64,000 nt of DNA from Vescimonas fastidiosa (GTDB lineage Bacteria; Bacillota; Clostridia; Oscillospirales; Oscillospiraceae). Every line of letters begins with the position of its first letter. Position 1 is the first letter of the stretch. This document shows, piece after piece, positions 8,002-60,216 of this stretch. The stretch covers positions 558,001 through 622,000 of the forward strand of contig NZ_AP023415.1 of the NCBI RefSeq assembly GCF_018326305.1. Reading direction: 5' to 3'. Made by a program: the position numbers and the translations under genes. The notes beneath the pieces are model-generated. The model made no database searches and was not told the DNA's origin. It was given only the letters and a program-made list of their open reading frames with translations.

Positions 8002-8089
8002 GGAGAGATGGCTGAGTGGTCGAAAGCACCGGTCTTGAAAACCGGCGATGTGAAAGCATCCGTGGGTTCGAATCCCACTCTCTCCGCCA
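8002..8089 (+). tRNA. tRNA-Ser (UGA anticodon)
   Basis: Acceptor arms GGAGAGA (8002-8008) and TCTCTCC (8079-8085) are followed by discriminator G and an encoded CCA. The anticodon stem CCGGT/ACCGG encloses CTTGAAA with anticodon TGA at 8036-8038. A long variable arm (GATGTGAAAGCATC) and GGTTCGAATCC T-arm fit a class II serine tRNA. Confidence 0.97.
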
Positions 8090-8325: not shown

Positions 8326-8585
8326 ATATTGAAAAAACAGTGATGAAGAGTAGTACTTCCGGACGCTATGCAAAGAGAGGGAGCGGTAGGTGTGAGCTTC
8401 CGTGAGGGCCGGGAGGAAGTCGCTTCGGAGTTCTGCCGCCCAGCGTAAGTAAGCGGCAGCGGCCGCCGCCGTTATCGGCTTTTGAGTGCGAGGGCTTGAC
8501 CCTCGAACACAGGTGGTACCACGGACTGTATTTATGGTTCGCCCTGTTTTGCTTTTGTGGCAAAACGGAGCGGGCCTTTTGTTTT
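8326..8585 (+). promoter_or_regulatory. T-box leader (valine) upstream of valS
   Basis: The leader contains the conserved T-box AGGTGGTACCACGG at 8511-8524, an AGTA motif in the 5' stem I region (near 8350), and a final terminator made of 8541-8552 with 8560-8575 followed by TTTTGTTTT. The likely specifier is GTC (valine) at 8419-8421 in the context GGAAGTCG. Uncharged tRNA-Val would pair with the specifier and T-box and permit read-through into valS. The T-box and terminator are directly visible; the exact specifier is inferred. Confidence 0.92.
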
Positions 8586-50920: not shown

Positions 50921-51150
50921 AAAAACAGAGCTTTGAGGAAAATATGGATCGCCTGGAGGAGATCGTCTCTCTCCTGGAGCAGGGGGATGCTACCCTGGGC
51001 GAGTCCCTGACGCTATTTACCGAGGGCAGCAAGCTCCTGGCCGCCTGCCAAAAGGAGCTGGAAACCGCCCGGCAAAAGGTGGTCAAGCTCACCAAGGGTC
51101 CCGATGGCGCCCCTGTGGAAGAAAATTTCGTAATGGAGGACGAGGAATAA
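50917..51150 (+). CDS. xseB: Exodeoxyribonuclease VII small subunit
   Basis: The 77-residue protein has the typical SFEENMDRLEEIVSLLEQGD and LGESLTLFTEGSKLLAACQK helices that wrap the XseA coiled coil. The ATG overlaps the xseA stop (ATGA) and the stop overlaps the ispA start by one base. Together with xseA it forms the Exo VII complex. Secure. Confidence 0.96.
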   Translation: MKKQSFEENMDRLEEIVSLLEQGDATLGESLTLFTEGSKLLAACQKELETARQKVVKLTKGPDGAPVEENFVMEDEE

Positions 51151-52022
51151 TGGACTATCAGCAGCAATACAGCGCCTATCAGCAGGCTATTGAGACCTAT
51201 TTAGACGGCATTTTTACCGCCGAGGGAAAGCCCTATGGACGGCTTCAGGAGTCTATCCGCTACAGCCTCCTGGCCGGCGGAAAGCGCATCCGCCCGGTGC
51301 TGACGCTGGAGTTTGCCCGTCTGGGCGGCATTGACTGGCATTTGGCCTTGCCCTATGCCTGCGCCCTGGAGCTTGTGCATAATTATTCGCTGATCCACGA
51401 TGACCTGCCCTGCATGGACGACGACGATCTGCGCCGCGGAAAGCCCACCAACCATAAGGTCTACGGCGAAACCCTGGCTGTCCTGGCCGGGGATGCCATG
51501 CAGCCGGAGGCTTTCCGTCTCATTCTCCAGGCCCGTGGTCTTTCTGCCGACAACCGCATTGAGGCGGCCCTGCTTCTCGCCAAGGCCTGCGGCGCTGACG
51601 GCATGGTGGCCGGTCAGGTGCTGGACACTCTGTGCCATGTGGAGGACGAGGAGGGCCTCACCGGTTTGAACCGTCTCAAAACCGGTGTTATGATCTCCGC
51701 CGCCGCAGAGCTGGGCTGCGTTGCCTCCAATATGCCCGCCTATTGGCGCCAGCAGGCGGTAAAATATGCTGACCAGCTGGGCCTTGCCTTCCAAATTCGA
51801 GATGATATGCTGGATGTCATGGGTGATGAAGCCGTGTTTGGCAAGCCCATCGGCTCCGATAAGGACGAGGGAAAAATCACCTATGTAAATCTCAAGGGCC
51901 TGGACGGCTGTGCCCAAGAGGTTGAAAAGTGTACCGTCGCTGCCAAGGAAGCCATCCGCGACATCCCCGATCACGACTTCCTTTGGGAGCTGGCTGACCG
52001 TATGGTAGGCCGCAATAAATAA
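51150..52022 (+). CDS. ispA: Polyprenyl (farnesyl/geranyl) diphosphate synthase
   Basis: IspA condenses isopentenyl and allylic diphosphates to short-chain prenyl diphosphates. The 290-residue protein has GGKRIRPVLTLE, the first Asp-rich motif DDLPCMDDDDLRRGKPT from residue 84, and the second DDMLDVMGDEAVFGK. These place it in the FPP-type family common beside xseB and dxs. It ends with a terminator. The one-base overlap with xseB suggests cotranslation. Chain length (C15) is inferred from the family. Confidence 0.95.
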   Translation: MDYQQQYSAYQQAIETYLDGIFTAEGKPYGRLQESIRYSLLAGGKRIRPVLTLEFARLGGIDWHLALPYACALELVHNYSLIHDDLPCMDDDDLRRGKPTNHKVYGETLAVLAGDAMQPEAFRLILQARGLSADNRIEAALLLAKACGADGMVAGQVLDTLCHVEDEEGLTGLNRLKTGVMISAAAELGCVASNMPAYWRQQAVKYADQLGLAFQIRDDMLDVMGDEAVFGKPIGSDKDEGKITYVNLKGLDGCAQEVEKCTVAAKEAIRDIPDHDFLWELADRMVGRNK

Positions 52023-52038
52023 AGAAAGCCTTTTGAAC

Positions 52039-52073
52039 GGACCCCCTGCTTCACACGCAGGGAGTCCATTTTT
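52039..52073 (+). terminator. Terminator of the nusB-ispA operon
   Basis: A stem made of GGAC/GTCC (52039-52042 with 52064-52067) and CCCTGC/GCAGGG (52044-52049 with 52057-52062) with one mismatch is followed by ATTTTT. Confidence 0.75.
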
Positions 52074-52170
52074 ATACCCCACCGTAGGGGCCGGCGGTTG
52101 CCCACCGTCGCGCCAGCCGACTGACGGCCACTGTTGTGGCCGCCAATCGGGGCACTTCCTCGAAACCGGC

Positions 52171-52196
52171 TCGCTTCCTCTGCCACTGGCAGCGCT
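52171..52196 (+). repeat. 26-bp exact direct repeat, copy 1
   Basis: The 26 bases beginning TCGCTTCCTCTGCCACTGGC and ending AGCGCT recur exactly at 52770-52795. The copies are 599 bp apart within the repeat block; each contains the hairpin TGCCActgGGCA-like core. Confidence 0.9.
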
Positions 52197-52540
52197 TCGC
52201 CGATTTCCCCGACGGCCCGTAAGCACTCCTTGCAAATTCCGTAGGGGGCGATGCCTACATCGCCCCGCACCCTGTACTACTTGTAACCCTCCGTAGGGGC
52301 GACCCTTGCGGTCGCCCGAGGGAGGGGCAGAGCCCTTCCCCTACGCACGCCACATGGAACCGACCACACTGGGCTGACAGAATCGTCCGCCCCTACAAGC
52401 CGTTCCGTAGGTGCCGATGCCTACATCGGCCCGAACCGGATTTTTCCCGCACCTGCGGCAGGGCACGCGGGCCCTGCCCTACAAAAAACTTGTAGGGCGG
52501 CACCCATGTGTGCCACCGACCACCGCACTTCTTGTAATAT

Positions 52541-52662
52541 GTCATTGTGAAACCAGCGCGCACGCTGGTTGTGGCAATCCGCATCCCCCGTCCCCAAAGG
52601 CCCCCTCGCCTAAAGGGCCCTGGTACGGCGAAGCCGTGACTGGGGGATTCCACGCAGGCACT
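52541..52662. repeat. Degenerate copy of the 1965-2061 palindromic element
   Basis: GTCATTGTGA (52541-52550), GTGGCAATCCGC (52571-52582) and GGGGATTCCAC (52643-52653) match, in order, the outer and middle arms of the element at 1965. The middle has a GCCCC-rich insert, and the distal GGAATGAC end is missing. Confidence 0.65.
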
Positions 52663-52769
52663 TTCTTGTCAAACCTCCGTAGGGGCCGATGATCCTGTTG
52701 CGGTGCCCAAAATTTTTGCGCTGCCTTACGGCGAACGCTTAAAATTTTGACCGCGGCCACTCGCTCACT

Positions 52770-52795
52770 TCGCTTCCTCTGCCACTGGCAGCGCT
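52770..52795 (+). repeat. 26-bp exact direct repeat, copy 2
   Basis: Identical to 52171-52196 for 26 bases. It lies in a segment that ends the repeat block. Confidence 0.9.
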
Positions 52796-52933
52796 CAGTT
52801 CGCTCCCCACATCGGCCCGCCCATCGCACTACCAATAATCTCTCCGCAGGGCGTGGTGCCCTCCCTCCGTCTCCTACGCCCGCCTTTCCACTTGTCCTCT
52901 CCGTTCCGTTTCTGTTCAATTTGTATATTTCTA

Positions 52934-52962
52934 TTGAAAACATGAATAAAGTGTGGTAAAAT
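52934..52962 (+). promoter_or_regulatory. Sigma-A promoter of the OLE-type RNA
   Basis: TTGAAA (52934-52939), 17 bp, TAAAAT (52957-52962). The predicted start, about 52969-52971, coincides with the first base of the terminal helix of the RNA. Confidence 0.8.
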
Positions 52963-52969
52963 AATAAAT

Positions 52970-53629
52970 CACTGAATGACGGTGCAGTATCCTAGTCAGA
53001 TCTGCCGCCTTGTAAGAGGGGCCTAAAAATCCCTTTAAGGGCACAACTGTGAAGTCTCTGGTGCTTGCTTCTTACGCCCAGTTTGGGGTGGGTGCTGGAG
53101 GGAGGTGTGGCCAAATACCACACCTGCGGATTCAGGGCGCCTTCCAATGGCATGGAAGTCCCGACCCTGCTTTCGTGGAGACCTGCTCTTGTGCATAGGC
53201 GTACTCCCCTGGTGGTAAGCGACCTGTGTACGAAGCAGATTGAGAACCTGCAATGCGGTGCTACCCAGCCCTCGTGCTGTGAACGCTGTGTGCAGAGTAG
53301 CCTGCCTTGCGTGGAGTGGGTGAATGAGGGAGCCAAGCGGAAGCGTCCCCGGCCAGGGATGCTGTCCGATATTCCTCTGAAACCCCCTCTGCAAAAGAGG
53401 CTAAGAGACGGTTTGACTGCAGTGGAAATCACCTAGGCTGTCCCATAAAGGGCACCAGTGGGGTTGCAGTGCGGACTAAGTGGCAGTCGGGTCCTGCGGA
53501 GGGTAACACCGCAGCGCGGAGTTTAATGGGAAACCGCCTGATCGGCAACGAGAGGTAAGCCGCGGGGAAATCCAACCCGTACCTAAGCCGTAAGATTTAC
53601 CATTGGTGCTACCGTCATTCAGCTTTTTA
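52970..53629 (+). ncRNA. Large structured RNA, probable OLE RNA
   Basis: This segment between ispA and an OapA-like gene has no credible protein gene but dense pairing potential. Its ends form a perfect 12-bp helix: CTGAATGACGGT (52972-52983) with ACCGTCATTCAG (53611-53622), followed by CTTTTTATT. Internal helices include AGGTGTGG/CCACACCT (53103-53125), CTTCCA/TGGAAG (53142-53159) and a CCTCT/AGAGG hairpin near 53387. The last 150 bases contain GGAAACC- and GGTAAGCC-type unpaired purine motifs. Length (~650 nt), position between ispA and oapA-dxs, and its own promoter match OLE RNA, which in Bacillus halodurans forms a membrane ribonucleoprotein with OapA and affects stress and growth control. 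The sequence was not aligned to the family model; identity rests mainly on locus and architecture. Confidence 0.85.
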
Positions 53630-53652
53630 TTCTTAATAAGTGAGGGATATTT

Positions 53653-54198
53653 TTGGCTGACCCAAATAAAAACAAAAAGTCCAAGGACCGGTGGCCCCTG
53701 CGCGTTTTTCTGATCGCGGTGGCCCTTTCTGCCGTTATGAGCTTTTGCTCCTCGGCGGTATTGGAGGACAGCGGCCTCTGGATTCCCATTCTGGTTCTTG
53801 TCATTTTCATTCTTCTCGGTATTGTTTTTGATATGATCGGCGTAGCCGTCACGGCGGCGGATCCCAAGCCCTTCCACTCCATGGCAGCCCACGGGGAGAA
53901 GGGTGGACGGGAGGCCATCCGCCTGCTGAATATGTCCAACCGTGTCTCCTCCCTCTGTAACGATGTGGTGGGTGATATCTGCGGCATCGTCAGCGGTTCT
54001 ACGGCGGCGGTGATCGTGGTGGAGCTGCAGCAGAGCTTTAACCTCCGCAGCATTCTCGTCTCCATCGCTGTCACGGCACTGATTTCGGGCCTCACCATCG
54101 GCGGCAAGGCCGCCTGCAAGCCCATCGCCATCAACGACAGTACCAAGGTCGTATACCGTGTGGCGCGCATTATGAATGCGCTGCATCTGTTCCGTTAA
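53653..54198 (+). CDS. oapA: OLE-associated membrane protein OapA
   Basis: The 181-residue protein has a Lys-rich N-terminus (residues 1-15), membrane helices at about 17-36, 42-68, 112-125 and 130-150, and the segment AADPKPFHSMAA followed by GREAIRLLNMSNRVSSLCND. Asp104 and Asp108 in NDVVGDICGI form the Asp-x3-Asp pair that, as I recall, is required for OapA function in Bacillus halodurans. The start is TTG 53653 behind GAGGG. It begins 24 bases after the RNA's T-run and is followed closely by dxs. OapA recruits OLE RNA to the membrane; it was earlier known only as a hypothetical membrane protein. Confidence 0.88.
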   Translation: MADPNKNKKSKDRWPLRVFLIAVALSAVMSFCSSAVLEDSGLWIPILVLVIFILLGIVFDMIGVAVTAADPKPFHSMAAHGEKGGREAIRLLNMSNRVSSLCNDVVGDICGIVSGSTAAVIVVELQQSFNLRSILVSIAVTALISGLTIGGKAACKPIAINDSTKVVYRVARIMNALHLFR

Positions 54199-54213: not shown

Positions 54214-56073
54214 TTGATTTTAGAAAAGATCCGTGATCCGGAAGACATAAAACTATTGAATAGTGCCCAGGTGGACCGGCTTTGCCGGGAGCTTCGGGAC
54301 TTTCTGGTGGAAAATGTGTCGAAAACCGGTGGTCATTTGGCCTCCAACCTGGGTGTTGTGGAGCTGACGGTGGCTATCCATCGGGTGTTTGACACCTCCA
54401 AGGACCGTCTGGTTTTTGATGTGGGACACCAGTGCTACTGCCATAAGATTTTGACCGGGCGACAGTCGCTGTTTCATACATTGCGGCAGTTGGGCGGTCT
54501 TTCGGGTTTTCCCAAGCCCTATGAGAGCGAGCATGATGCTTTCGTCGCAGGCCACGCTTCCAACTCCGTTTCTGTAGCCTTGGGTATGGCCCACGCCCGA
54601 ACCTTGCTCCACGAGGATTACAGCGTTATCGCCCTGATCGGTGACGGTGCCATGACCGGCGGCCTCAGCTTCGAGGGGCTTAACGATGCCGGCGCCTCCG
54701 GGGAGCCCATGATCGTTATTCTCAATGACAACGGTATGTCTATCGACGCCAATGTGGGCGGTCTCAGCCGCCACCTGTCCCGCCTCCGCTCTGAGGAGGG
54801 ATACAATAATTTCAAACGATGGTATAAGGATAAGCTTCAGGGAGACTCACCCGCCAAAAAGCATCTGTACAATGCCAGCTCCCATGTGAAGCACTGGCTC
54901 AAGAGCAATCTCCTGCCTGAAAGCACTATGTTTGAAAAAATGGGCTTTTCCTACATGGGCCCTGTAAACGGTCACGATGTGCAGAAGCTGACCCAGATGC
55001 TCACCTGGGCCAAGGAGAAAAACGGGCCCGTGCTGCTCCATGTGCTTACAGAGAAGGGTCGTGGCTACTCCTACGCCCGGCAGGACCCGGAGCGGTTCCA
55101 CGGCACGCCGCCCTTTGACCCGGCAACCGGCAAGCCGCTGCGTCAGAGCAAGCCCTCTTTTTCCTCGGTTTTCGGCGAAGCCCTTGTGGAGCTGGCCCGG
55201 GAGGATAACCGCATTTGCGCTATTACCGCAGCCATGACCTCCGGCACGGGTCTGTCCCGATTTGCCAAGGAATTTCCCGATCGTTTTTTCGATGTGGGTA
55301 TCGCAGAGGGACATGCGGTGGCTATGGCGGGCGGCATGGCCAAGCAGGGTCTGATCCCGGTTTTTGCTGTGTATTCCAGCTTTTTGCAGCGGGGCTTCGA
55401 TATGCTCATTCACGATATTTCCCTGGATAATCTCCACGCGGTTTTCTGCGTGGACCGGGCCGGTTTGGTCGGTGCAGACGGGCAAACACACCATGGCTGC
55501 TTTGACCCGGCGTTCCTCTCCCAGGTACCGGGAATGACGGTTTTATGCCCCTCAAGCTTTAGCGAGCTAAAGGAAATGCTGCATTTTGCCCTATTTTCGG
55601 TGACAGGACCGGTGACAATTAGGTACCCTCGCGGTGCAGAATCGGTGTACAAAGGGTGCAGTTTGCCGGTGCAATTTACACCGCTCCGGGAGGGTTCGGA
55701 TTTTACCGTTTTAACCTATGGCATTTTGGTAAATGAGGCACTGAAGGCGGCGGATATTTTGGAAAAATCCGGAATCTTCATACGGGTACTGAAGCTCAAC
55801 CGCATTGCGCCCCTTTCGGCGGATGAAGTTTCCGCTATGCTGAAGGGGACCACCCGGCTTTTGGTGCTGGAGGACTGCCTTGACGCCGGGTGCGTTGGGC
55901 AGCGAGTTGCGGCTCTGGCTCTGGAGGCCGGGGTAAAGCTGGACAAGCTGATTTTGAGAAACTGCGGCTCGACTCTGCCCACCGAGGGCAGCGTAGAGCA
56001 GCTGTACAGCTCACGGAAGCTGGACGGGGTCGGTGTGGCCGCGTCTATTGAGGAGGCGCTGCATGAGCAATAA
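54214..56073 (+). CDS. dxs: 1-deoxy-D-xylulose-5-phosphate synthase
   Basis: DXS condenses pyruvate and glyceraldehyde 3-phosphate with thiamine diphosphate, the first step of the MEP pathway. The 619-residue protein has FDVGHQCYCHKILTGR, the thiamine motif GDGAMTGGLSFEGLNDAG ending in ILNDN, FFDVGIAEGHAVAMAGG in the transketolase domain and DRAGLVGADGQTHHG. The start is TTG 54214 after GGGGGT, 15 bases from oapA. The last third is lower in G+C in places but intact. It overlaps tlyA by 11 bases. Secure. Confidence 0.96.
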   Translation: MILEKIRDPEDIKLLNSAQVDRLCRELRDFLVENVSKTGGHLASNLGVVELTVAIHRVFDTSKDRLVFDVGHQCYCHKILTGRQSLFHTLRQLGGLSGFPKPYESEHDAFVAGHASNSVSVALGMAHARTLLHEDYSVIALIGDGAMTGGLSFEGLNDAGASGEPMIVILNDNGMSIDANVGGLSRHLSRLRSEEGYNNFKRWYKDKLQGDSPAKKHLYNASSHVKHWLKSNLLPESTMFEKMGFSYMGPVNGHDVQKLTQMLTWAKEKNGPVLLHVLTEKGRGYSYARQDPERFHGTPPFDPATGKPLRQSKPSFSSVFGEALVELAREDNRICAITAAMTSGTGLSRFAKEFPDRFFDVGIAEGHAVAMAGGMAKQGLIPVFAVYSSFLQRGFDMLIHDISLDNLHAVFCVDRAGLVGADGQTHHGCFDPAFLSQVPGMTVLCPSSFSELKEMLHFALFSVTGPVTIRYPRGAESVYKGCSLPVQFTPLREGSDFTVLTYGILVNEALKAADILEKSGIFIRVLKLNRIAPLSADEVSAMLKGTTRLLVLEDCLDAGCVGQRVAALALEAGVKLDKLILRNCGSTLPTEGSVEQLYSSRKLDGVGVAASIEEALHEQ

Positions 56074-56866
56074 GACTCGGCTGGATGTTTTGCTGACGGA
56101 GAGGGGACTTCTGGATTCCCGGCAGAAGGCTCAGGCCACCATCATGAGCGGCATCGTGTTCGTGAATGGACAGAGAGTGGACAAGGTAGGTACGGCGGTT
56201 TCCAATGACGCCCTGATCGAGATTCGCGGCACCACCTTACCCTATGTGAGCCGGGGCGGTCTGAAGCTGGAAAAGGCTATGCAGACCTTTCCGCTGACTC
56301 TTACAGGCAAGATCTGCGCCGACATCGGTGCTTCCACCGGCGGCTTTACGGATTGTATGCTGCAAAACGGCGCAAAGAAGGTATATGCCGTGGATGTGGG
56401 CTACGGGCAGCTGGATTGGAAGCTGCGCAATGATGCGCGGGTGGTATGCATGGAGCGGACCAACGCCCGATACCTGACCCACGAGGAGATTCCGGAGGAA
56501 CTGGACTTTGCCTCCGTTGATGTATCCTTTATCTCCCTGAAGCTGATTTTTCCCGCGCTGTATGGGCTTTTGCGGGAGGGGGGCGAAATCGCCTGCCTGA
56601 TAAAGCCGCAGTTTGAGGCCGGCCGGGAAAAGGTGGGAAAAAAGGGTGTTGTCCGAGACCCCGCCGTGCATTTGGATGTGCTGGAGCACTTTCTGATCCA
56701 TGCAAAGGAAAATCACTTTACAGTGCTTGGAATTACTTATTCTCCCATACGAGGGCCCGAGGGAAACATCGAATACCTGGGCTTTTTGCGCAAGAGTGAG
56801 GAGCCGGATGCGGCGGTGGATCTGCAGGCTATCGTGGAGGCATCTCACACAGCCCTGAAGGAGTAA
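56063..56866 (+). CDS. tlyA: TlyA family rRNA 2'-O-methyltransferase
   Basis: The 267-residue protein has an N-terminal S4 RNA-binding domain (LDVLLTERGLLDSRQKAQAT) and an FtsJ-type methyltransferase domain with SAM motif CADIGASTGGFTDCML and later DFASVDVSFISLKLI. TlyA (YqxC) methylates rRNA and in some species is called haemolysin A. AGGAGGCG lies 7 bases before the ATG 56063, inside the end of dxs. The order dxs-tlyA-nadK-argR-recN is conserved in Firmicutes. Confidence 0.95.
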   Translation: MSNKTRLDVLLTERGLLDSRQKAQATIMSGIVFVNGQRVDKVGTAVSNDALIEIRGTTLPYVSRGGLKLEKAMQTFPLTLTGKICADIGASTGGFTDCMLQNGAKKVYAVDVGYGQLDWKLRNDARVVCMERTNARYLTHEEIPEELDFASVDVSFISLKLIFPALYGLLREGGEIACLIKPQFEAGREKVGKKGVVRDPAVHLDVLEHFLIHAKENHFTVLGITYSPIRGPEGNIEYLGFLRKSEEPDAAVDLQAIVEASHTALKE

Positions 56867-56872
56867 ACGAAT

Positions 56873-57760
56873 ATGAGTAAGCCGAAGAAAATCATCCTGT
56901 GCCCCAATCCTTACAGGGACAAGGATATGACGGTGGCCGCCCGGTCTAAGGAAATTCTGGACCAGGAGGGCTTTGAGACCGTGGTGTGCCTGCCCTTTCA
57001 AAAGGAGGGGTATGGCGCGGAGCTGGGTGTTCCCATCCAGCAGCTGGACCGGGAAATTAAGAGGGCAGACCTGCTCATTGCCTTCGGCGGCGACGGGACC
57101 ATTCTGCACCTGGCCAAAACGCTGGCCATGAACCGGGTGCCGGTGCTGGGCATCAACCTGGGAAGCCTGGGCTTTATGTCTGAGCTGGAGCCGGACGAAT
57201 TGGAGCGGCTAAGAGACCTGAAAAACTGGGATCTCTCCATTGAGAACCGCATGATGCTGGATGTATCCGTGGTGCGGGACGGTCGTACGGTGTATAATAC
57301 CATTGCCCTGAACGACGCGGTCATCTCTAAGGGCTCCATCGCCCGGGTGGTGCGGCTGGAAATTTACACGGAGGAGGGCTTTCTGACCTGGGTGGGAGGC
57401 GACGGCGTCGTGATCTCTACGCCTACCGGCTCCACCGGCTACTCTATGGCCACCGGCGGCCCCATTGTGGAGCCTACGGCCCGGAACATTCTCATCAGCC
57501 CCATTTGCCCGCATTCCACCCGTTCCAGCAGCTATGTGCTGGATCCGTCCCATGTGATTCATGTGAAGGCCCCGGATGCCAACAGGAAATTCGTATACCT
57601 TTCCTCCGATGGCAGCAAGGCCTTTTCCCTGAAAAACAACGACACGGTGCAGGCAAAGCTCTCCAGCCACTCTATGAAGCTGGTGCGCCTGTCAAAAAAG
57701 AGCTTCTGCGAGATCCTGGATAAAAAAATGGCTATGGAGGCTGCAAAATATGAAAAATGA
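56873..57760 (+). CDS. nadK: NAD kinase
   Basis: NAD kinase makes NADP from NAD and ATP. The 295-residue protein has the LLIAFGGDGTILHLAKTL motif, NLGSLGFMSELEPDE, the NDAVISKGSIARVV region and GDGVVISTPTGSTGYSMA, which bind NAD and phosphate. GGAG precedes ATG 56873. It overlaps argR by 11 bases. Secure. Confidence 0.96.
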   Translation: MSKPKKIILCPNPYRDKDMTVAARSKEILDQEGFETVVCLPFQKEGYGAELGVPIQQLDREIKRADLLIAFGGDGTILHLAKTLAMNRVPVLGINLGSLGFMSELEPDELERLRDLKNWDLSIENRMMLDVSVVRDGRTVYNTIALNDAVISKGSIARVVRLEIYTEEGFLTWVGGDGVVISTPTGSTGYSMATGGPIVEPTARNILISPICPHSTRSSSYVLDPSHVIHVKAPDANRKFVYLSSDGSKAFSLKNNDTVQAKLSSHSMKLVRLSKKSFCEILDKKMAMEAAKYEK

Positions 57761-58202
57761 CCGTCAAAAAACGATTCTTTCCATCATTGCCGAGGAAACG
57801 GTGGAGACCCAGGAGCAGCTTCTGTCGCTGCTGCTGGAACGGGGCATTGTGGCAACCCAGGCAACGATTTCCCGGGATATTAAGCAGCTCCACCTTGTCA
57901 AGGCTCCGGCAGGGCAGGGGAAGTACCGCTATGCGGTATCCGACCATGGGTCAAAAATCCATGTGGCGGATAAATTGCAGACCATTTTCCGAGAGAGCAT
58001 TGTAAATGTGGATTACGCGCAAAACCTGGTGGTCATCCACACCATGTCGGGTCTGGCTAACGGGGCGGCGGCTGCCCTGGACGGCATGGAGATCGACCAG
58101 CTTATCGGCACCCTGGCCGGAGACGACACGGTGCTGATCATTATGCGTGACAATGAGAGCGCCGCGGAGCTGGCCACCAGCATCCGAACGATGCTGCACT
58201 GA
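57750..58202 (+). CDS. argR: Arginine repressor ArgR/AhrC
   Basis: ArgR is the arginine-sensing hexameric repressor/activator of arginine metabolism. The 150-residue protein has the winged-helix N-terminus (TQEQLLSLLLERGIVATQAT, then ISRDIKQLHLVK) and the hexamer/arginine-binding C-terminus (NGAAAALDGMEIDQLIGTLA with GDDTVLIIMRD). The DNA-binding and arginine-binding (GDD) residues are present. It sits in the dxs-recN cluster, away from arginine genes, as usual for Firmicutes. Secure. Confidence 0.96.
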   Translation: MKNDRQKTILSIIAEETVETQEQLLSLLLERGIVATQATISRDIKQLHLVKAPAGQGKYRYAVSDHGSKIHVADKLQTIFRESIVNVDYAQNLVVIHTMSGLANGAAAALDGMEIDQLIGTLAGDDTVLIIMRDNESAAELATSIRTMLH

Positions 58203-58219: not shown

Positions 58220-59890
58220 ATGCTTGATCTGCTGCATATTGAGAATATTGCCATCATTGAGCAGGCGGACATCGCCTTTCGGCCCGGATTCAACGCCCTG
58301 ACGGGTGAGACGGGCGCGGGCAAGTCCATTGTCATTGACGCCCTCAGCGCTGTTTTGGGGCAGAGAGCATCCCGGGAGCTGATCCGCACCGGGGCGGATC
58401 ATGCCTTTGTGAGCGCAGTGTTTTCCCATATCCCCGAGGGGTTGGGAGAGGACCTGGGCGTAGCGGACGCCCAGGAGTGGCTATTGCAGCGGGAGATCTA
58501 CACAGACGGGAAAAATGTCTGCCGCTGCAACGGGCGGCCCATGACCGTGACCCAACTGCGCACCCTGGGCAGCCGCTTGCTGAACATCCACGGTCAGCAC
58601 GACGGGCAGCAGCTTCTGGACGAAACGCAGCATATTGTATACCTGGATCAATACGGAAGGTATGAGCCTTTACAGTCGGCTTACTCTGCGCAGTTTTCTG
58701 TGCTGCAGGATATCCGAAGGAAGATATCCGACCTGGAGATGAATGAGGCGGAGAAGGAGCGGCGGATGGACTCGCTGCGGTTTCAAATTGCCGAGCTGGA
58801 GCGGGCTAAATTGCAGCCGGGTGAGGACGAGGAGCTCAGTGAGCGGCGAAATCTGCTGCGCAACAGCGAGAAATTCATCTCTGCCTTACAGGGGGCTGAC
58901 TTTTGCCTGAATGGCGGAGACAACGATGCAGGAGCTCTGTCGCTGCTGCGACAGGCGCAGGAGCATCTGGCCTCGGTGCGGAACCTGAGTGATAGCTTTT
59001 CGGAGCTTCACGACCGCCTGGAGGGAATTTACAGTGACCTGTATGACATTGCCTACACGGTACAGGACAAAAAGGAAGAATTTGAGTTCACGCCCGGAGA
59101 GCTGGATGCCGTGGAGGGCCGATGCGACCTGCTGTACCGGCTGAAAAAGAAATACGGCGCTACAGTGGAGCAGATGCTGGAATACTTGGATAAGTGCCGG
59201 CAGGAGCTGGACGAGATGACCTGCGCCGACGACACCCTGGCGCACCTTAAAAAGCAGGAGGAAAAGGCCCGGAGGGAGGTCATGGCGGCGGCCGGTGAGC
59301 TGTCCCGACAGCGAAAGGCCGTAGCTAAGGAGCTGGAGCAGCGGATCTTAACGGAGCTGCGGGAGCTGAACATGGGCTCCATCCGGTTTGAGGTGGCCTT
59401 TGAGGAAAAGAAGCCGGATGCCAGCGGCATAGACGAGGTGCGGTTTTTGATGTCGGCCAATGTGGGCGAGGACCTGCGGCCCATTCAGAAGATCGCCTCC
59501 GGCGGCGAACTGGCCCGGATCATGCTGGCTATGAAGAATGTTTTTTCCAGTCAGGAGCGCATCGGAACCATGGTATTCGACGAGGTGGACACCGGCGTTT
59601 CCGGCCGGGCGGCCCAAAAGGTGGCGGAGAAAATGGCGCGCATCTCCCGGGAAAAGCAAGTGCTGTGCGTGACCCATCTGCCTCAGATCGCGGCCATGGC
59701 CGACACCCATTTCTCCGTGGAGAAGGGGGTAAGCGATGGGCGTACCTTTACAAAGGTGCAGGAGCTTTCCCGGCAGCAGCGCCGGGAGGAGCTGGCAAGG
59801 CTCACCGGCGGCGAGCAGCTCTCCCAGACCATGCTGGACGGGGCCGAGGAGCTGCTGGCAGCGGCGGAGAAGTTCAAAAAAACCGTGTGA
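58220..59890 (+). CDS. recN: DNA repair protein RecN
   Basis: RecN is an SMC-like ATPase that gathers DNA ends early in double-strand-break repair. The 556-residue protein has the Walker A GETGAGKS at residues 29-36, a long coiled-coil middle (about residues 150-370), and the C-terminal ABC signature and Walker B region KIASGGELARIMLA and TMVFDEVDTGVSGRAA. AAGGGAG precedes ATG 58220. It ends the OLE-linked operon. No LexA box was seen close upstream. Secure. Confidence 0.96.
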   Translation: MLDLLHIENIAIIEQADIAFRPGFNALTGETGAGKSIVIDALSAVLGQRASRELIRTGADHAFVSAVFSHIPEGLGEDLGVADAQEWLLQREIYTDGKNVCRCNGRPMTVTQLRTLGSRLLNIHGQHDGQQLLDETQHIVYLDQYGRYEPLQSAYSAQFSVLQDIRRKISDLEMNEAEKERRMDSLRFQIAELERAKLQPGEDEELSERRNLLRNSEKFISALQGADFCLNGGDNDAGALSLLRQAQEHLASVRNLSDSFSELHDRLEGIYSDLYDIAYTVQDKKEEFEFTPGELDAVEGRCDLLYRLKKKYGATVEQMLEYLDKCRQELDEMTCADDTLAHLKKQEEKARREVMAAAGELSRQRKAVAKELEQRILTELRELNMGSIRFEVAFEEKKPDASGIDEVRFLMSANVGEDLRPIQKIASGGELARIMLAMKNVFSSQERIGTMVFDEVDTGVSGRAAQKVAEKMARISREKQVLCVTHLPQIAAMADTHFSVEKGVSDGRTFTKVQELSRQQRREELARLTGGEQLSQTMLDGAEELLAAAEKFKKTV

Positions 59891-59932: not shown

Positions 59933-60216
59933 TAATTTCATATACCACAGTGCTGATGGGAAGAAGTAGCGCTTTTTGACCCCTGCCAAGAGAGACTCCG
60001 GGCGGTGCGAGGAGGAGAGGGGAGAAGCGGTGAATACATCCCGGAGCTGCCTTCCAAACGGACAAAGATCTCAGTAGGAATGTGTCGGGTGCGCCCGTTA
60101 CAGCGTTTGGGTGTCTGACACCCAGTGAGGCCGCTGACCGTGAGGCTGCGGCGAATATGAGGTGGTACCGCGATTTTTACATCGCCCTCTGTCTATGGAG
60201 ACAGGGGGCGTTTTTT
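59933..60216 (+). promoter_or_regulatory. T-box leader (tyrosine) upstream of tyrS
   Basis: A T-box TGAGGTGGTACCGCG (60158-60172), an AAGTAG motif in the 5' region, and a terminator of 12 bp (60183-60194 with 60199-60210) followed by six T residues. The specifier TAC (tyrosine) at 60035-60037 stands in GGTGAATACATC, the same GAA-codon context as in the valS leader. Uncharged tRNA-Tyr would favour the antiterminator. Confidence 0.93.

Follow-up and report, generated by a model that had tools for sequence, protein, structure and literature searches.

Among the structured RNAs of bacteria that lack a known biochemical function, OLE RNA is one of the largest. Full-length OLE RNAs have been described in H. 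halodurans, C. acetobutylicum and others. According to the text of one survey, OLE occurs in 2,822 Bacillota genomes, with gut clades named, and about 45% of OLE bearers have the partner protein OapC (PMC11332333). The same text describes two variants among gut Bacillota, variant 1 (TANB77) and variant 2 (RF39), which shorten or lose P7-P9 or P7-P8, and variant 1 often loses the OapB site too; OapC is also described as missing in RF39 and TANB77 (PMC11332333). Two k-turns are under discussion at the protein-binding junction of OLE RNA (PMC12054373, PMC12286853). In H. halodurans, J5/6 is reported to supply one (3') strand of k-turn 1a, a fold induced by OapC (PMC9723947). Cryo-EM is reported to show k-turn 1b instead, formed by J4a/5 with J6/7 (PMC12286853), and the two k-turns are described as mutually exclusive (PMC12286853, PMC12054373).

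The locus studied here lies in a window of 64,000 nucleotides, which is the whole stretch of DNA that was analyzed. It is very probably an ole-oapA locus from an Oscillospiraceae-type host, with a full-length OLE RNA, most likely its own promoter, a terminal helix and, in J5/6, an additional covarying hairpin that marks a family-specific variant. The RNA resembles the known full-length OLE RNAs in its full model match, the adjoining oapA, the dxs-tlyA-nadK-argR-recN genes and the sequences of the dimer-contact loops. It differs from them in the J5/6 hairpin, in A84/UGU for U84/GAU, in longer P7 and P8 loops, in a P6 without the CCUCC anti-Shine-Dalgarno mimic and in its Oscillospiraceae-type host. 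Unlike variants 1 and 2, the RNA matches the whole length of the model and carries an added hairpin. Both variants were ruled out, because the model aligned end to end and P7 and P8 have gained sequence instead of losing it.

The OLE RNA, its neighbors and its host

An Rfam scan of the whole window placed OLE RNA at 52963-53631 on the forward strand (RF01071, 410.6 bits, E 3.6e-117). The alignment was not truncated and covered model positions 1-616 of 616; the gathering score of the model is 50 bits. The features of the locus are as follows.

51150..52022, + strand: ispA, farnesyl diphosphate synthase, upstream neighbor (NCBIfam NF045485 over cut-off)
52934..52962, + strand: probable ole promoter, TTGAAA-17-TAAAAT (10/12 matches)
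52963..53631, + strand: OLE RNA gene (RF01071 match)
52972..52984, + strand: 5' arm of the terminal helix (P1-like), pairing with 53610-53622
53610..53622, + strand: 3' arm of the terminal helix, followed by CTTTTT
53653..54198, + strand: oapA, a CNNM-like membrane protein of 181 aa (Pfam CNNM, DxxxD at residues 104-108, structural matches)
54214..56073, + strand: dxs (TIGR00204, 653.6 bits)
56057..56866, + strand: tlyA (TIGR00478 over cut-off)
56873..57760, + strand: nadK (Pfam NAD_kinase and NAD_kinase_C over cut-offs)
57750..58202, + strand: argR (TIGR01529 over cut-off)
58220..59890, + strand: recN (TIGR00634 over cut-off)

The identity of the segment as OLE RNA is near certain. The initial annotation had proposed OLE from context and size, with coordinates of 52970-53629, and the covariance model bore this out over its full length. 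That annotation had named RNase P and a group II intron as competitors and had called the segment free of genes. It is vanishingly improbable that the segment is such a large RNA or hides a protein gene, and nothing was found in support of either. OLE was the sole Rfam family here at gathering scores, which ruled out RNase P, group II introns and the other Rfam families. Three ORFs in overlapping frames within the segment (118, 123 and 145 aa as scanned) gave zero Pfam matches above cut-off, ruling out a coding gene; two weak Pfam matches (E 0.22 and 0.41) came from one of them. The ole gene was single copy in the genome by RF01071 search, and 0/14 control genomes gave a match.

The promoter, terminal helix and protein partner of the initial annotation were also recovered, as were the neighbors it had listed, namely ispA upstream and dxs-tlyA-nadK-argR-recN downstream. 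To that gene order we add a gap of ~940 bases between ispA and ole. Repeats in this gap (52020-52960) comprise CGTAGGGGC three times, a 35-nt repeat twice at 89% identity and an exact 26-nt repeat twice. The ole gene therefore stands apart from ispA, with its own promoter-like site. This candidate was the only sigma-70-like site in 52850-53700, where 0.4 were expected, and from the predicted promoter the transcript probably starts near 52969. The terminal helix has 13 pairs, one of them G-U, and its positions are unpaired in the Rfam structure line. Closing stems of other sequence were found in relatives. For 119 distinct flanks of the bacterial family, the weighted mean of the best stem was 8.8 pairs, versus 6.8 with arms swapped (maximum of 30 swaps, 7.2); for 68 distinct flanks outside the family, it was 8.5 versus 6.2 (maximum 6.5). 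We take the terminal helix to be P1 of the published OLE models.

The dimer-contact loops (A-rich L4, L5.1/L6.1 and palindromic L9) read CCUAAAAAU, GCCCAG, AAUGGCA and GGCC in this RNA. The P7 loop (53207-53220) and P8 loop (53263-53281) carry inserts of 14 nt and 19 nt relative to Rfam. By analogy with H. halodurans and with cryo-EM of other OLE RNAs, the RNA would dimerize, OapA would anchor it in the membrane, and OapB and OapC would bind it. A role in stress and metal-ion adaptation would likewise be expected from H. halodurans.

As expected for OLE loci, oapA lies directly 3' of ole. The protein scored 26.2 bits against Pfam CNNM (E 7.1e-6), below the cut-off of 28.4, and a PDB sequence search gave zero matches. 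OapA is described as the cluster next closest to the CNNM model after MpfA (PMC11332333). Its motif DVVGD (DxxxD) was invariant in 24/24 aligned sequences. For an AlphaFold2 model of mean pLDDT 77, each of the top five Foldseek matches was a CNNM/CorC structure with a probability of 1.00; the best E was 8.5e-3 and none fell below 1e-3. Among these five was 7m1u, a structure entry named in PMC11332333. The best matches of the model are the transmembrane domains of the MpfA/CorB/CorC CNNM transporters. OapA differs from those transporters in its DxxxD motif and in its 181 aa, without a CBS or CorC_HlyC match.

OapA, OapB, OapC and bS21 are all encoded in the window's genome. For OapB, a PDB sequence search to E 10 matched OLE-associated protein B alone (7k9b, E 1.8e-7), and a Pfam KOW search was negative; its gene sits between map and infA, both named by eye from their ORFs. 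OapC matched YbxF best in the PDB (4lck and 3v7e, E ~9e-13) and scored 61 bits with NF010125, under the cut-off of 113. Its gene is just upstream of rpsL, and it is YbxF rather than YlxQ; a separate YlxQ-like protein is present in the same genome. Elsewhere in the genome, bS21 and one CorC_HlyC protein were found. The P6 GGG/CCC pairs on which bS21 binding depends in H. halodurans (PMC12054373) are kept here, by alignment, without the CCUCC mimic. Mutants M1-M3, with an altered mimic, are reported to have still bound bS21 (PMC12054373), and so, by analogy, bS21 binding by this OLE RNA may persist despite the absent CCUCC.

The window also holds two T-box leaders, with the genes downstream named by eye. 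One (8331-8549) is upstream of a valyl-tRNA synthetase gene and is preceded by two tRNA-Ser genes at 8002 and 8107. The other (59944-60192) is upstream of a tyrosyl-tRNA synthetase gene.

The initial annotation had assigned the DNA to a gut Clostridium, which held only roughly. Among the best 80 of 576 confirmed oapA loci, the nearest named relatives were mostly Oscillospiraceae, Oscillibacter or unresolved Clostridia; many titles in this set gave gut or rumen samples and others left the source unstated. The host is probably an Oscillospiraceae-type bacterium from the gut. The further proposal, that the locus extends OLE to a mesophilic spore-former, did not survive: the RNA is already on record from 2,822 Bacillota genomes, gut clades among them (PMC11332333). 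Our own counts also stand against it. OLE was present in 27/32 genomes of the window's genus (14/14 of good quality), in 56/200 searched genomes of the family (39/129 of good quality) and in 151/391 searched genomes of the class (133/318 of good quality). OLE in a gut anaerobe is already known.

Two side observations concern individual relatives. A contig labelled Candidatus Cacconaster stercorequi (L064) bears an Oscillospiraceae-type OLE-oapA locus while NCBI puts that genus in Bacteroidales, which is a conflict of label or binning. In another genome (G213, contig 20, 11220-11778), the OLE match fell into three pieces (model positions 278-595, 88-139 and 144-190), possibly a decayed or rearranged ole gene.

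An extra hairpin in J5/6

The most unusual feature of this OLE RNA, absent from the initial annotation, is a hairpin between P5 and P6.

53103..53125, + strand: extra J5/6 hairpin, 8-bp stem and 7-nt loop (Rfam insert, fold, locus comparison)

In the Rfam alignment it appears as a 22-nt insert at 53104-53125, and the fold of 53044-53190, which contains it, had a z-score of -2.2. What this analysis adds is this family-specific form of OLE, which has gained a covarying hairpin at the k-turn 1a junction. The text passages of the OLE literature that were searched do not mention the hairpin, and we do not claim that it is unpublished. None of the papers searched named OLE RNA together with Oscillibacter.

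To compare loci, we used the stretch between the P5 and P6 loops, that is, the 3' strand of P5, J5/6 and the 5' strand of P6. It was parsed in 205 loci from 227 sequences, window included; 14 sequences lacked recognized OLE ends and eight lacked recognized P5/P6 anchors. The stretch was 41-43 nt in every parsed locus from outside the family (65/65) and in 16 family loci, and all 81 of these hairpin-free loci had UUAAGG or a near form at J5/6. In the other 124 family loci, the window included, it was 55-77 nt with a hairpin; some genomes are counted more than once among these loci, as with the window and L001. When the eight loci without anchors were read by eye, four from the family had the hairpin and four from outside did not. 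A subgroup of five loci (L092, L104, L107, L109 and L121) has a longer insert, with a stretch of 71-75 nt by a separate measure, and in one locus (L237, genome G141) the J5/6 insert exceeds 100 nt.

The outer stem was assessed on 78 distinct inserts; 10/124 inserts failed the delimiter. It averaged 6.4 perfect pairs, compared to 4.1 when halves were swapped between species (maximum of 200 swaps, 4.5) and 0.7 when inserts were shuffled. At stem positions 4-8, the distinct inserts have GC, AU, UA, CG and GU pairs plus mismatches. Only 0-2 bp could be formed in 10/78 distinct inserts. A scan of the 391 class genomes with a strict motif hit OLE in the window's genome alone; this pattern is strict and missed the hairpin-bearing G051, and the comparison of parsed loci is the better test. 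The motif had four further matches, all in genomes that lack an OLE match.

In both OLE RNA trees, of 85 and of 130 sequences, the hairpin is one state change, nested in canonical lineages. In the 130-row tree, J5/6 was cut from all rows and outsiders without OapC were included. In the 85-RNA tree, five rows still held J5/6, the 11 outgroup genomes all had OapC, and the support of the hairpin branch was an SH-aLRT of 87, under the 95 mark. A hairpin with a single origin, in an RNA whose P7 and P8 loops also carry inserts (14 and 19 nt), could simply be a neutral peripheral expansion of an ordinary OLE RNA, like those longer loops, and the OapC loss of its relatives could be unrelated. We consider this explanation slightly better than even, although the P5-P6 stretch is fixed at 41-43 nt elsewhere and the hairpin overlaps the k-turn 1a strand, both of which count against it.

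K-turn strands and OapC

The other strands of the junction are listed below, with H. halodurans numbering by alignment.

53046..53053, + strand: J4a/5, with A84, C85, the bulge UGU and GAA; strand common to k-turns 1a and 1b
53175..53182, + strand: J6/7, GUGGAGAC, 3' strand of k-turn 1b, kept (locus comparison)

The window departs from the k-turn 1a consensus (U84-C85, GAU, GA, UUAAGG), having A84, UGU and a hairpin for UUAAGG, and keeps C85 and GA. Both strands of k-turn 1b are present, J4a/5 with C85...GA and J6/7 with GGAGA, where the pairing follows our reading of the published text. Across the loci, C85 was fixed in 124/124 with the hairpin and in 80/80 parsed canonical ones. U84 was found in 38/124 hairpin loci versus 77/80 canonical loci, and the GAU bulge in 38/124 versus 78/80; these, like the C85 counts, are counts of related loci and not of independent events. 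The J6/7 motif G-Y-GGAG-R-C was found in 124/124 hairpin loci, and a close form in 79/81 canonical loci. The drift of U84 and the bulge, being nearly confined to hairpin loci, argues against a purely neutral expansion.

In 121/124 loci, the hairpin's 5' arm has A(A/G)...G at its start, and a k-turn-1a-like contact with C85 could, therefore, still form. This weakened the notion that the hairpin simply abolishes k-turn 1a. Another possible explanation is that this arm, with the invariant C85, still forms k-turn 1a when OapC binds, and that the hairpin is a competing switch partner, partly replacing P6. Retention of OapC in the window's genus would agree with such a switch. Position 84 is not U in 86/124 hairpin loci (A in 62), and this speaks against it. 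In H. halodurans, U84A is reported to have weakened OapC binding, with OapC bound only at higher protein concentration, and C85A to have given no binding (PMC9723947). We regard the switch as distinctly unlikely.

The distribution of OapC was determined by search with NF010125, a model that did not match the YlxQ of the window's genome and gave weak second matches in some outside genomes. OapC was found in 15/16 canonical genomes of the family, the one lacking it (G190) being 87% complete. It was present in 20/46 hairpin genomes, comprising 12/14 searched genomes of the window's genus and 8/32 others. Outside the family it was present in 53/58 genomes, a non-random set of one per family plus the 18 highest OLE scores. 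For outside genomes with the junction read, the count was 51/57, missing in six, with the weak YlxQ-like match of G545 discounted. A match in G200 (E 9e-4, two stops) was likewise counted as absent. Two genomes (G039 and G135) were searched for OapC with the junction unread, and two (G018 and G111) were excluded from the OapC trees since rpsL was not found. Eight OapC-negative genomes, in seven of which the hairpin was read, had no OapC-like frame in the interval from the rpoC end (recognized by eye) to rpsL, and eight OapC-positive genomes had the OapC frame there. This check left out G051 and G147, where the rpsL start was unrecognized, and G110, G142, G135 and G200, with no rpoC beside rpsL.

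For genomes of at least 90% completeness in which rpsL was found, the 130-row tree gave three OapC losses in the hairpin clade and one outside, the latter in one clade of three long-branched genomes. The hairpin clade has a length of 6.9 out of 36.5 overall, and by length share alone the probability of these losses was ~0.02. Within the family, 3/3 losses were in the hairpin clade, with a length of 6.9 out of 12.1, giving 0.19. Adding less complete genomes gave seven losses in the hairpin clade and five outside. The 85-RNA tree gave three losses, all in the hairpin clade (~0.05), where the 11 OapC-bearing outgroups favor linkage. A test of independent pairs for hairpin versus OapC loss was null because the hairpin has only one origin, and for the same reason the link rests on few events. 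It is no more than suggestive. OapC is kept in 12/14 genomes of the window's genus and, thus, the hairpin does not force its loss. This retention, a within-family count of losses that is not beyond chance, and the absence of OapC from many OLE bearers (~45% have it in the survey text of PMC11332333) all fit a neutral expansion.

Possible role of the hairpin

A function for the hairpin is a hypothesis. The one we propose is that the hairpin captures the strand of k-turn 1a and so stands in for OapC as a folding aid, with OapC then dispensable and lost several times while k-turn 1b is fixed. We put this forward tentatively and regard it as rather unlikely. Under this proposal, the hairpin would pair with or displace the 3' strand of k-turn 1a in J5/6. 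The junction would become less dependent on the k-turn 1a induced by OapC and would rely on P5/P6 or on the k-turn 1b form. With less dependence on k-turn 1a, U84 and the GAU bulge would have come under weaker selection, and several lineages could have lost OapC.

In this clade the k-turn 1a strand is altered, the k-turn 1b strand is intact and some members have OapC while others lack it; the clade would, therefore, provide natural sequences for the k-turn question. If the proposed takeover by the hairpin is true, the family would be a natural experiment on which of the disputed k-turns works and on what OapC is for.
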